This document shows, piece after piece, positions 8,980-62,575 of a stretch of 64,000 nucleotides of DNA. How positions within the stretch are numbered: position 1 is the first letter of the stretch; each line of letters begins with the position of its first letter. Location: assembly GCA_943787595.1 (NCBI GenBank), contig CALSNA010000002.1, positions 374,467 through 438,466 of the forward strand, in the 5' to 3' direction. This stretch comes from an uncultured Pseudomonadales bacterium. Its GTDB lineage: Bacteria; Pseudomonadota; Gammaproteobacteria; Pseudomonadales; Balneatricaceae. The position numbers and the translations under genes were made by a program. Below the pieces are notes generated by a model, which was given only the letters and a program-made list of their open reading frames with translations, was not told the DNA's origin and searched no databases.

Positions 8980-11279
<2,300 letters not shown>

Positions 11280-58435: not shown

Positions 58436-59044
58436 ATGCAGCAGAACCACGTTTGGGGCGCACATGCCGATGACTGGATCCATTTTGACCTGATGCTGGG
58501 TCTGGGGCCGGATCTGTTGCCAGTGGTATCCAATCCGGAGCGACCCATCGCACCTAAAAGCGTTCTGTCAAAAAACAACCTCGGCAAGGTGCCCAGCCTG
58601 CTCAGGCAGGACGGTCATATCTTCGGCATCAGGGACTGGCAGGATAAACAGACCCGGGACAAACAAATCACCCTCTGGTCAAAACAGTGCGACTACGGCA
58701 TCTGCATCCAGACCCGCCGGGTACGGGCCATTGATGTGGACGTAACCGATCCGGATCTGGCCACCAACATTGCCGTAACCCTGCTGGATCGTATCCCTGA
58801 CCTGGCCATCCGCAACCGGGCAGACAGCAGCAAGTTCCTGGCTGCCCTGATCGTCGAAAGTGCCACACCAATGGCCAAAAAGGTCATCCCCACTGAACAC
58901 GGCATGATTGAAGTGCTGGGGGATGGGCGGCAGTTTGTGGCCGTAGGCACACACCCCAGCGGGGAGAAATACGCCTGGGAGGGTGGCCTGCCGCTATCCC
59001 TGCCCACCCTGACCGAATCAGAATTTGACACCCTCCTGCAGTAA
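58436..59044 (+). CDS. bifunctional primase-polymerase domain, split from helicase
   Basis: 202 residues of a primase-polymerase (PF09250-like) domain. RAIDVDVTDPDL with the acidic pair, IRNRADSSKFLAAL and a Gly/Thr-rich FVAVGTHPSGEKYAW segment are visible. The stop TAA at 59042-59044 is directly followed, in frame and nine codons later, by the helicase start at 59072; the intervening residues LTDQYGTGAMQVLGD match the joining region of single-chain phage primase-helicases. One chain has therefore become two. Both halves may still be translated. Confidence 0.75.
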   Translation: MQQNHVWGAHADDWIHFDLMLGLGPDLLPVVSNPERPIAPKSVLSKNNLGKVPSLLRQDGHIFGIRDWQDKQTRDKQITLWSKQCDYGICIQTRRVRAIDVDVTDPDLATNIAVTLLDRIPDLAIRNRADSSKFLAALIVESATPMAKKVIPTEHGMIEVLGDGRQFVAVGTHPSGEKYAWEGGLPLSLPTLTESEFDTLLQ

Positions 59045-59071: not shown

Positions 59072-60835
59072 ATGCAGGTGCTGGGCGACACCAACCGCAC
59101 CGGCAAACTCGGTCAGGCCATTTCCACAGACCGGGTGGTTCAGACCTTACAGACCCGGGGACTGGTCAAGAAGATTGAGTCCGATGGCCGGGCGCACATT
59201 GTCTGCCCCTTTGAATCAGAACACACGACTGACAGTGGCCTCCCCGATACCACCTATTTTCCTGCCCATACCCACGGCTACGCCCAGGGGCACTTCCACT
59301 GTCTGCACGCCCACTGCAGTAACCGGACGGATCAGGAGTTCGAACAGGCCCTGGGACTGCTTGCAGATGAGTTCGAAAATCTGGATGCCCTCGACAGCCA
59401 AACCGCAGCCGATCTGAAACAGATACCCCTGCCCAAGGCCCTCACCCGGGCAAATACTAAACGCCACAGCCCAACCGAGTTTGGCAACGCCATGCGCCTG
59501 CTGGATCGCTACGGAGAGGATCTGATGTACGTGCCGGAACTGGAAAGCTGGTTCCGCTGGACTAGTACCTTTTGGTATCAAACCCCCTGTACTACAGTCC
59601 TGTACCTGGCCAAACAGACCGTCCTTTCCCTACACAATGAAGCCCGAGCCATTCAGGATGAAGGTGCCCGGGACGCCCTGATCAAGTTTGCTGCCCAGAG
59701 CCAAAAACTCTCGATGGTGCGTAACATGCTCTCCCTGGCCGCAAGTGAACCTAAAGTCAATGTGGCCGCCCGAAGCCTGGATAAACAAAAAGACCTGCTG
59801 GGGGTGGCCAACGGTGTCATTGACCTGCGTACCGGAAAACTCATGCCTGCCCAGCGTCAGGACCGAATCACCCTGACCAGCACAATTGCCCACGATGCCC
59901 GCGCAAAAGCCCCGCTGTTTGAACAGACCGTCAGCGACGTGTTCTACAACGACAAGGACATGGTCTGCTTCTTTCAGAGGGTAATTGGCTACACCTTCAC
60001 GGGCTGTCCCGATGAGGACATCCTGGTCATTCTGCACGGTGATGGCTCCAACGGCAAGTCCACCGTGCTCGGAGCCATACGCAAGGTCATGGACCAGCAT
60101 GCCCGGGTAGCCCAGGCCGAAACGTTCATGACTGACAAAGTGGTCAGCTCCGCTGGCTCTGCCCGCGAAGATATCCTGCGCCTGCGCGGTGCCCGACTGG
60201 TATACACCACCGAGCCCGATGAAAACTGCGTGCTGCATGAGGGGCTGATCAAGTCGATGACCGGCGGTGAACCGATCCCGGCCCGGGGCGTCTATGGACG
60301 TGCCACCATTGAAGTACCGGTCACCTGGACTGTGTTCATGGCCACCAACCACAAGCCCATCATCAAGGGCAATGACCACGGCATCTGGCGAAGGTTGATG
60401 CTGATCCCCTTCACCCGCAACCTTGATGCCGATCCGAATATCACCAAGGATATCCATCGTAAGCACGGCCTGGCCAAGGAAGCTGCAGGCATCCTGAACT
60501 GGTGCGTTCAGGGAGCACTGGACTACCAGAAACAGGGACTGAATCCCCCACCGAAGGTACAACAGGCTCGTCAGGAATACCGGCAGAGCATGGACCTGCT
60601 CCACGAATGGCTGAATGAATGCTGTGAGATCGGACCTGCGTACACGGTCAGTAATGCTGATCTGTGGCGCAGCTGGCAGAACTGGGCCATGAACCGGGGC
60701 GAGATCAATCACATCAAAAGTCAAACCGCATTGAGCCGACGACTGGGTAGCCGGTTCACCAGCATCAAGGATACCGAAGGTGTTCGTGGACGGGGCTTTA
60801 AAGGGCTTCGGTTAGGCAAGGTGGAGGGCATATAA
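59072..60835 (+). CDS. phage SF3 helicase (D5/P4-type primase C-terminal)
   Basis: 587 residues. A CPF..H...HCLHAHC zinc motif is at 45-82. The D5_N region runs to about 300. The Walker A HGDGSNGKST at 322-331 is followed by the D5 Walker B-like RLVYTTEPDE, an arginine finger region and a C-terminal winged-helix domain. The ATG at 59072 has GGAG in front. It would unwind DNA at the origin during phage replication. This block is GC-rich relative to the flanking host DNA. The following repeat cluster begins 35 bases later. Confidence 0.88.
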   Translation: MQVLGDTNRTGKLGQAISTDRVVQTLQTRGLVKKIESDGRAHIVCPFESEHTTDSGLPDTTYFPAHTHGYAQGHFHCLHAHCSNRTDQEFEQALGLLADEFENLDALDSQTAADLKQIPLPKALTRANTKRHSPTEFGNAMRLLDRYGEDLMYVPELESWFRWTSTFWYQTPCTTVLYLAKQTVLSLHNEARAIQDEGARDALIKFAAQSQKLSMVRNMLSLAASEPKVNVAARSLDKQKDLLGVANGVIDLRTGKLMPAQRQDRITLTSTIAHDARAKAPLFEQTVSDVFYNDKDMVCFFQRVIGYTFTGCPDEDILVILHGDGSNGKSTVLGAIRKVMDQHARVAQAETFMTDKVVSSAGSAREDILRLRGARLVYTTEPDENCVLHEGLIKSMTGGEPIPARGVYGRATIEVPVTWTVFMATNHKPIIKGNDHGIWRRLMLIPFTRNLDADPNITKDIHRKHGLAKEAAGILNWCVQGALDYQKQGLNPPPKVQQARQEYRQSMDLLHEWLNECCEIGPAYTVSNADLWRSWQNWAMNRGEINHIKSQTALSRRLGSRFTSIKDTEGVRGRGFKGLRLGKVEGI

Positions 60836-60870
60836 AATGCATATCAGGTACCAGACCATACCTCCGGTTT

Positions 60871-61166
60871 GCGACGATAGCGACGATAGCGACGATAGCG
60901 ACGATAGCGACGATAGCGACGACAAAATCATAACTTTTTTGATAGAAGGTGTTACCTGCAAAAATTCTGCAAGTTCATGCTTGCGACGATGGCGACGCAA
61001 TATCAGGAAACTATATTGCAAAATATTGCAGGCTGATCAAATTTTGACCATAAATTCCGGTCAATCTGCGACGTTTGCGACGTTTGCGACGCTTTTTCAT
61101 AAACCCCCCATGTGCGCGCGCGCATACAGGTTTCTATATTATCGTCTTTAACGTCGCAAACGTCGC
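60871..61166. repeat. GCGACG iteron-like repeats (direct and inverted)
   Basis: Five perfect GCGACGATA copies in tandem (60871-60915) and a sixth variant GCGACGACA (60916-60924). A second block has GCGACGATG and GCGACGCAA (60983-61000), a third has GCGACGTTT twice and GCGACGCTT (61068-61094). On the opposite strand two copies lie at 61149-61166. AT-rich DNA flanks and separates them. Spacing of nine bases gives about one helical turn. It is a likely replication origin for the adjacent primase-helicase, or a regulatory array. A short plus-strand ORF over it (60837-61151) is low complexity. Confidence 0.65.
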
Positions 61167-61291
61167 AAAGTAATAAACCTGTAATATTTTGCATTTTAAA
61201 AAAAATAAAATTAATTCTGTTAACTACAATATTTTGCAAGTGGCAACGGACAACATAAATTCACCGTGGCAAATCAAACTGGAGGAGTAGG

Positions 61292-61705
61292 ATGATGCTG
61301 GCATCCAGAGTGCTCGACAGCGATACACAGGAACGTCTGGACAACTGGGGACGGTGGGCGCGCGACTGTGCGCCATACCGCCACCTCTGGTACCCACAGC
61401 GAACCATACTGGCCCAGCTGCGCAAAGCCAGTACAGTGTTCGACGAACCCCGCCCCATCAATAACCCACCGGCAGTCAATGACACAGATGCCGAACACAT
61501 TGAACTGGCTGTGCAGAAGTTATATCAGCGCGACCAGCGGCTGGGCCACTGCCTGCGCTGTCGCTGGGTATACCAGTGTTCTGGGCGAGAACTGGCCAGG
61601 TCATTTGGTAGCAACTACACAGATATCTGGCGGCTGATCAGTCAGGCAGAGAATATCCTGCAAGGCATGTTGTGGTCCGATCCAGACGCTATGCCCAGGC
61701 CATAG
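61292..61705 (+). CDS. phage antitermination protein Q-like
   Basis: 137 residues. The pattern RWARDCAPYRHLWYP, then a Cys pair HCLRCRWVYQCSG, then ELARSFGSNYTDIWRLISQAENILQGML resembles Phage_antitermQ proteins. It has a strong GGAGGAG Shine-Dalgarno. In lambdoid phages Q follows the replication genes and precedes lysis genes. Here no lysis or structural gene follows. Confidence 0.75.
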   Translation: MMLASRVLDSDTQERLDNWGRWARDCAPYRHLWYPQRTILAQLRKASTVFDEPRPINNPPAVNDTDAEHIELAVQKLYQRDQRLGHCLRCRWVYQCSGRELARSFGSNYTDIWRLISQAENILQGMLWSDPDAMPRP

Positions 61706-61843: not shown

Positions 61844-62575
61844 ATGGAATCAGAAGATGGTGACCCGAATGGAGGTAGTTCAACTAACGTCAAACCTACC
61901 CTTGACTCTAAATTTGTTAACACATTCTACCAGGACCTTTTGCAGCCAGCTTTCAGAGAAATTGGTGAAATAGGTAAGATAAGCGCAAAAGCGTGGAAAG
62001 AAAAGATCATTAATAAGCTTGAAGAAATACCCCCCGAAAATCGCCAACAACCAAATCCAAGAGTGGCAGGCCCCACCATAGAAGCCTTACGTCGGATACC
62101 TGAAGCGGAAGACATCTCTGATATCTATTTACAGCTTCTAAAAACGTCCGCAGATAACAGGGTCGCACAAAAAGCACATCCTGCTTTCGTTAGCATCATA
62201 AGGGACATCACCGGTGAAGAAGCAAAAATATTGAATTATTTAGCTACAGGTGGCGAGCGAGCAGGTCGTGATCGAGACAATTATGATTTTACATTTGTGA
62301 ATAAATTTGTTGAGAAGGGCAAACGCACAGGAAAGTATGATGATTGCATAGCTAAACAAGCAAAGTGCAGCAATCCAGGCCTGGCAGGTTTGTACTTGGA
62401 AAACCTAGAGCGTTTGGAACTAATCAAGATAAAAGGGGATGGTTGGGATGAAGAAGATGACATAAAACGCGACCATCGTGAATACCACGTATGGTCACAC
62501 ATTATTACATTTACCGAATTCGGTAAAACTTTTCACGAGGCTTGCATCGGATCAAAACAATATGAAAATGAATGA
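61844..62575 (+). CDS. Abi-alpha-like (DUF4393) protein
   Basis: 243 residues. An N-terminal segment FYQDLLQPAFREIGEIGKISAKAW and a middle region DISDIYLQLLKTSADNRVAQKAHPAFVSIIRDITGEEAKILNYLATGG match the abortive-infection alpha (DUF4393) family, which occurs in defence islands and prophages. The C-terminal part has an acidic region DDGWDEEDDIKRD. It is probably accessory cargo that protects the host from another phage. Function not proven for this branch. Confidence 0.7.
   Translation: MESEDGDPNGGSSTNVKPTLDSKFVNTFYQDLLQPAFREIGEIGKISAKAWKEKIINKLEEIPPENRQQPNPRVAGPTIEALRRIPEAEDISDIYLQLLKTSADNRVAQKAHPAFVSIIRDITGEEAKILNYLATGGERAGRDRDNYDFTFVNKFVEKGKRTGKYDDCIAKQAKCSNPGLAGLYLENLERLELIKIKGDGWDEEDDIKRDHREYHVWSHIITFTEFGKTFHEACIGSKQYENE

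Follow-up and report, generated by a model that had tools for sequence, protein, structure and literature searches.

Mirrored 9-bp iterons downstream of a prophage AEP/SF3 primase-helicase: a probable replication origin with a layout shared among relatives

Introduction

What function is served by a dense cluster of 9-bp repeats lying directly after the primase-helicase gene of a prophage? The question is raised by a 64,000-nucleotide stretch of DNA from an uncultured Pseudomonadales bacterium (hereafter, the window), for which a sequence-only reading had proposed that the repeats are a phage replication origin bound by the product of the adjacent gene. Our analysis supports this proposal, and we consider it highly probable that the repeats are the prophage's replication origin and are bound by its primase-helicase. 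The origin reading is supported by the recurrence of mirrored repeat pairs 3' of homologous helicases, at a place where annotated origins also lie (phages Sfi21, A2 and phiadh), and by the covariation of iteron bases with the wing of the helicase, the C-terminal domains of SaPI Rep and Cch2 being repeat-binding domains. It would belong to a known class of origin, repeat-based and directly downstream of an SF3 initiator; the shared geometry and the wing code described below go beyond the published accounts that we found in the open literature.

Results

A prophage replication module precedes the repeats

The region is a prophage. Upstream of the repeats lie a CI/LexA-like repressor gene, a CII-like ORF, an AEP (Prim-Pol) primase ORF of 202 aa (58436..59044, + strand; Pfam PF09250, E 6e-7; PHROG DNA primase) and an SF3 (D5_N/P4-family) helicase of 587 aa (59072..60835, + strand), which is the proposed initiator and matches PF08706 (E 7e-28; 98 bits against a cut-off of 22.4), PF19263 and TIGR01613 (236 bits against a cut-off of 108.7). 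The AlphaFold model of the helicase (pLDDT 93) matches ASFV PrimPol (Z 31.4) and the SaPI5 primase-helicase (7om0, Z 28.8), and also vaccinia D5. The AEP and helicase ORFs share one frame with a single TAA (59042-59044) between them, whereas BPP-1-type relatives have one fused gene; the division may be natural, or the gene may be broken.

On the other side of the repeats, the first gene, directly downstream of the element, encodes a Q-like antiterminator and has its start at 61292. It is followed by a gene of the Abi_alpha (abortive infection) family (61844-62575), which precedes the late genes and is possibly anti-phage cargo carried by the prophage. Beyond the window's right edge lie terminase, tail and endolysin genes; the terminase large subunit is divided between two ORFs (ATPase and nuclease parts) at about 66020-67630 in window numbering (L241:15487-17097), with the tail and endolysin genes shortly after. 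Judging from the in-frame stop between AEP and helicase and from the split terminase, the prophage is perhaps damaged or decaying, so that its present-day function is uncertain.

Thirteen copies of one core occur within 300 bp

The 300 bp that contain the repeats hold 13 GCGACG cores (11 direct and two inverted), a count that never exceeds three per 300 bp when the window is dinucleotide-shuffled 100 times; GCGACG and CGTCGC together occur 19 times in the whole window, 13 of them inside this one stretch, and the arrangement GCGACG-N3-GCGACG-N3-GCGACG is unique to this site in the 2.28-Mb genome scanned. The tandem blocks of six, two and three direct copies and the two inverted copies described by the sequence-only reading were all recovered at their places. 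Block A (60871..60924, + strand) comprises six direct iterons, five of GCGACGATA and one of GCGACGACA, whose cores start at 60871, 60880, 60889, 60898, 60907 and 60916, and an inverted partner with the same linker is absent. Block B (60983..61000, + strand) comprises two direct iterons (GCGACGATG and GCGACGCAA; cores starting at 60983 and 60992), and block C (61068..61094, + strand) three (GCGACGTTT twice and GCGACGCTT; cores starting at 61068, 61077 and 61086). The right arm (61152..61169, - strand) consists of two inverted iterons, CGTCGCAAA twice, with CGTCGC cores starting at 61152 and 61161. The period is 9 bp in each block and, as had been noted, the GCGACG core is constant and the last three bases, or linker, vary by block: ATA in block A, ATG/CAA in block B and TTT in block C.

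These block-specific linkers had been taken to argue against slippage. That argument fails, because linkers that are uniform within a block are what local tandem expansion would produce. It might be supposed that the repeats are simply an expansion in a coding or junk region, with no replication function; the uniform linkers of block A are as a recent expansion would leave them, and an ORF (60837-61151) runs through the repeats, where its translation reads DDSDDSDD and TFATFAT. However, inverted blocks are not made by slippage, and a 9-bp period corresponds to three codons, so that repeats of this kind hold reading frames open unaided; a search for a Pfam match to the ORF found none.

The core count of 13 is the highest of the 94 loci counted, in which a count of four occurs most often. 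Blocks A and B are without a mirrored partner of their own, and comparable extra units were seen only in two relatives (L160/L260); the block A iteron GCGACGATA is the mirrored iteron of three others (L161, L162 and L272), the arms in the window using GCGACGTTT. The extra six- and two-copy blocks are out of the ordinary and may be titration sites, a decayed second origin or a recent expansion. At L160, 500 bp past the helicase stop, the mirrored element is itself repeated, as successive inward- and outward-facing GGGACGTTT pairs.

A mirrored element encloses an alternating purine-pyrimidine tract

Part of block C forms, with the right arm, a mirrored element in which TTTGCGACG TTTGCGACG (61074-61091) is followed by 60 bp and then by CGTCGCAAA CGTCGCAAA, all copies being exact; its 18-bp arms are perfectly complementary and it measures 96 bp in total. 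A generic search of the whole window for mirrored tandem pairs returned this site alone, with one further match at a looser setting. The spacer (61092..61151; 60 bp, 57-58% AT) includes a 20-nt alternating purine-pyrimidine tract, CATGTGCGCGCGCGCATACA (61109..61128), which lies no more than 3 bp from the symmetry centre and is longer than the corresponding tract in 100 of 100 spacer shuffles.

The repeats had been described as lying in otherwise AT-rich DNA. This is true of a flank outside the arms (61170..61240, 82% AT), but the interval 60836-61291 has 59% AT and the spacer, with its GC alternating tract, 58%. Consequently, a clear unwinding element between the arms is missing and the usual melting argument applies only in part. 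A check for a GC-skew switch, which the sequence-only reading had called for, showed only a weak sign change near 60.2-61.5 kb. Scanning the element for promoters and terminators, and against Rfam, gave nothing exceeding chance.

The layout recurs after homologous helicase genes

The closest named helicases are those of Bordetella phage BPP-1 (56% identity), Burkholderia phage BcepC6B (52%) and Acinetobacter phage 4316 (49%), in all of which the repeat sequences are unlike those of the window but the geometry is the same. Downstream of its helicase gene BPP-1 has TTTGCCTCG twice and then inverted twice, and 4316 has AGTGACGTT in the same arrangement; the GGGACGATA pair and inverted pair of BcepC6B lie just within the start of the linear record, which runs on from the helicase gene at the record's end.

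This layout is conserved on a larger scale, in counts that are not independent because some loci are near-duplicates: under strict matching 51 of 100 loci had a mirrored pair past the helicase stop, with 13 pairs in other parts of the same loci (862 kb), and a softer score of at least 36, within 600 bp of the helicase stop, was reached in 60 of 99 loci but in none of 198 shuffles (maximum 31.2), none of 96 stretches within the gene and one of 81 further downstream. A second, subfamily-specific scan detected the pair in 70 of 78 loci of the closest subfamily. The typical element in relatives has a period of 9 and a spacer of about 58-69 bp; 8-bp iterons, with the mirrored layout kept, occur in L301-L313 and in Sfi21 (L249). 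There was no detectable element in 39 of the 99 loci and eight of the 78 subfamily loci, including those of Paraburkholderia (L143 and L147). Together with these two, L324, L325, L328 and L329 are loci in which a mirrored element was not detected past the helicase stop, and their origin may be elsewhere or of another form.

Across 30 distinct iterons there is a common loose pattern, about RKGACGKWT, which GCGACGTTT of the window fits; its information content over the 30 distinct elements is 5.85 bits, compared with 4.20 +- 0.17 (maximum 4.57) for permuted letters. Exact sequence is shared much more narrowly: the same-sequence repeat pattern was found in none of 369 genomes of the class save the window's own, and no near relative of the helicase was found among relatives of the host or in the order. 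A scan for the TTTGCGACG pair identified six viral contigs, one of which (L152) has the mirrored pair beside a homologous helicase. GCGACG-N3 triples in viral contigs were also considered as relatives and set aside, most of the 120 stretches being GC-rich and unlike this element.

Once similar spacers had been removed, 37 of the 43 strong elements remained, and the longest run of alternating purines and pyrimidines is significant against shuffles (p <=0.05) in 21 of these 37 non-redundant spacers. The run lies mostly near the symmetry centre, the central tract being TATATATA in the Acinetobacter group, ACGTGTAC in BPP-1 and GCGCGCGCGC in the window's own spacer; GC tracts like this last one occur in L132 and L234. 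The spacers of L128, L157 and L172 also contain a nested inner palindrome, such as TTTCTCAT-ACGTGTAC-ATGAGAAA in BPP-1, which is weakly present in the window.

The comparison of related prophages called for by the sequence-only reading thus found the layout conserved. Its persistence despite differing repeat sequences contradicts expansion as the source of the mirrored element and leaves the idea of a functionless repeat expansion hardly credible, even if expansion may account for how many copies block A has (13 cores in all, where four are typical). Neighbouring genes suggest another role, in which CI, CII-like or Q-like antiterminator proteins would bind the repeats as operators or late-gene control sites at the early/late boundary: phage regulators do bind repeated operators, and the Q-like gene begins directly downstream. 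But in BPP-1 and 4316 the same layout precedes other genes (a small HTH/endonuclease gene and the terminase), the promoter scan of the element gave no site above chance, annotated origins occupy this place in A2, phiadh and Sfi21, and iteron variation tracks the C-terminus of the helicase, all of which make a regulatory role very improbable.

Iteron bases covary with the helicase wing

The C-terminal domain of the helicase (60524..60832, + strand) is predicted to be a winged helix by AlphaFold models and by a fold search, in which its winged-helix partners included RFX-type domains, among the best (Z 6.8-7.8), and the C-terminus of ASFV PrimPol (Z 6.9), all with middling scores. In RFX1 the wing reads the DNA major groove. 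The wing motif in the window is I565-K566-D567, and the K566-D567 codons occupy 60767-60772.

Two natural variants, L164 and L179, have helicases that differ at eight of 470 residues, six of them in the last 75, and five of those six form one block at the wing (FQLIRS in one, FTSAKG in the other); their iterons differ by a single base, A to G, in four of four copies. In pairs with unchanged iterons (L130/L164 and L165/L166) there are six to seven residue differences, all of them before the last 75 residues. In the subfamily as a whole, the residue following K/R in the wing motif goes with base 2 of the iteron, D with C and N with G in the first set. BcepC6B has N at the wing position and G at base 2, a case examined once the N rule was already in place.

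The rule relating wing residue to iteron base was fixed in writing ahead of a scan for new loci, which were tallied by hand as distinct new motifs. On these new loci the rule held in part: at base 2, D occurred with C in nine of ten, omitting L254 for a doubtful repeat call, and of four independent groups with N two had G; at base 4, K occurred with A in six of six and R with T in five of seven, the exceptions being L176, L266, L315, L322 and L326. Among helicase pairs at least 80% identical, which are not independent of one another, change of the residue after K/R (X) accompanies change of base 2 (Fisher p 4e-5), and change of K/R accompanies change of base 4 (p 0.047). Mutual information calculated globally over iteron and helicase columns mostly reflected phylogeny and could not be used. 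There is good, though not conclusive, reason to think that the helicase wing reads the iteron.

Discussion

The origin would lie within the intergenic interval 60836-61291, where the primase-helicase encoded upstream would bind the 9-bp iterons through its C-terminal winged helix. The opposed pairs of block C and the right arm would then load two SF3 hexamers face to face across the spacer of about 60 bp, the spacer would be opened around its central alternating purine-pyrimidine tract, and the associated AEP primase would make primers, from which replication would start in both directions. Blocks A and B may be extra binding sites, concerned with initiator titration or copy control, or the remains of a second origin unit. 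The geometry of the repeats, its recurrence past homologous helicase genes, the predicted winged-helix fold and the covariation of iteron and wing are what the analysis shows; that the initiator binds, that two hexamers load, that the spacer melts, which way replication runs and what blocks A and B do are inferences.

A wider generalisation seems to us evenly balanced between right and wrong. It holds that a single design, in which a pair of 9-bp iterons is opposed to an inverted pair over a spacer of about 58-70 bp with an alternating purine-pyrimidine centre, would serve AEP/SF3 primase-helicases from archaeal plasmids to bacterial phages; that published 'stem-loop' origins would be iteron origins; and that the wing code would set specificity (base 2: D-C, N-G; base 4: K-A, R-T). 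If this is true, the iteron origins of SaPI and Sfi21 and the stem-loop origins of pRN1 and BIP-1 are reconciled as one design, of which the element in the window is an ordinary member save for its extra copies; there is a simple rule for locating origins beside many phage primase-helicases that are as yet uncharacterised; and protein-DNA recognition and origin specificity can be tested directly on natural pairs such as L164/L179.

The Sulfolobus plasmid pRN1 requires for its replication a 100-bp 'stem-loop' 3' of its AEP-SF3-winged-helix gene; the origin is said by the authors who described it to be without iteron structure, the binding motifs being left unidentified by them (PMC4234260). The pRN1 family resembles the window in having an AEP-SF3-winged-helix protein and an inverted repeat of about 100 bp 3' of the gene, although in the window the AEP and SF3 domains of the pRN1/BIP-1 type are present in two ORFs. 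The arms can be written as 9-bp tandem pairs in pRN1 (TTATGTCCA TAGTGTCCA), pRN2 (ATCGGACCG ATAGGACAG) and pHEN7 (GTCACCACT GTCACAACT), as also in BPP-1; the tandem copies of pRN1 and pRN2 match at seven of nine bases and the spacer of the pRN plasmids is about 58-65 bp. Random perfect inverted repeats equal the pRN1 score at period 9 in 0.8% of simulations, so that pRN1 alone is weak evidence, and pDL10, in which a 9-bp tandem pair was not found, is a counter-example among pRN-family plasmids.

Berkner et al. (2014) proposed a model for pRN1 and BIP-1 by which a cruciform or hairpin would be recognised rather than iteron sequences, and the 18-bp arms of the window, being perfectly complementary, could form one. 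Mutation of a GTG in the pRN1 stem was tolerated only where symmetry was restored, and replication depends on the integrity of the stem (PMC4234260), results that fit a structural role at least as well as iterons; the nested palindromes of several relatives could be read likewise. Yet the arms are tandem 9-bp repeats, which a hairpin would not need, eight more direct copies lie outside them in the window, the wing residues covary with iteron bases, and most spacers fold no better than their shuffles (median z -0.36). Recognition of a hairpin is therefore unlikely, and we prefer recognition of the iterons themselves.

The putative origin of BPP-1/BIP-1 (bbp29) resembles that of the window in its homologous helicase, downstream mirrored tandem 9-mers and central alternating tract, and differs in iteron sequence, in having four copies only and in the fusion of AEP and helicase in one gene; its authors observed a stem-loop similar to that of pRN1 and reported iterons to be lacking (PMC4234260). 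The intergenic elements of BcepC6B and 4316 likewise combine a homologous helicase with tandem and inverted pairs, but have another iteron core, lack the extra blocks and are not named as origins in their sequence records.

The sequence-only reading had invoked a P4-like system, and the likeness is real in layout: P4 has an SF3 helicase with C-terminal origin binding, and its crr, which adjoins the 3' end of alpha, contains repeats 9 bp apart with inverted partners. The closest relatives, however, are BPP-1 and BcepC6B rather than P4. The P4 alpha primase is of DnaG/Toprim type (PMC4234260), whereas the primase ORF of the window is of AEP type (PF09250); the P4 repeats contain GTGAACA where the window has its GCGACG core, and the annotated P4 ori lies elsewhere (9086-9809).

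The repeats that lie downstream of the SaPI Rep and SCCmec Cch2 genes are bound by the C-terminal domains of these proteins, and two hexamers have been proposed (PMC7581432). These systems share with the window an origin directly 3' of the helicase gene, and the helicase fold matches the SaPI5 primase-helicase, but their repeat lengths and sequences are different, the likeness being drawn from published description. In the Lactobacillus phages A2 and phiadh, GenBank rep_origin features begin at the 3' end of the homologous primase gene, where Streptococcus phage Sfi21 also has its annotated 302-bp origin (phage inhibitory sequence). The Sfi21 origin consists of TTAGTTAC twice, 71 bp and the inverted sequence twice, with an 8-bp period; that of phiadh has paired GTGTAGGGTTA/GTGTATAGTT plus inverted pairs, and the A2 pairs are irregular. 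A further common motif, like CCTTGTGGCTCT / CCTTGGGAGAGTAAG, lies beside the iterons of A2, phi105 and phiadh (L237, L238 and L240) and is absent from the window. The three annotated phage origins differ from the window in their Gram-positive hosts, their period of 8 or 10-11 and their AT-rich spacer, but Sfi21 and phiadh share with it paired direct repeats that face inverted pairs across a spacer, 3' of a helicase-type gene. The window thus has the layout of the SaPI, Sfi21, A2 and phiadh kind, with short direct repeats directly 3' of the initiator gene and opposed sets flanking a spacer.
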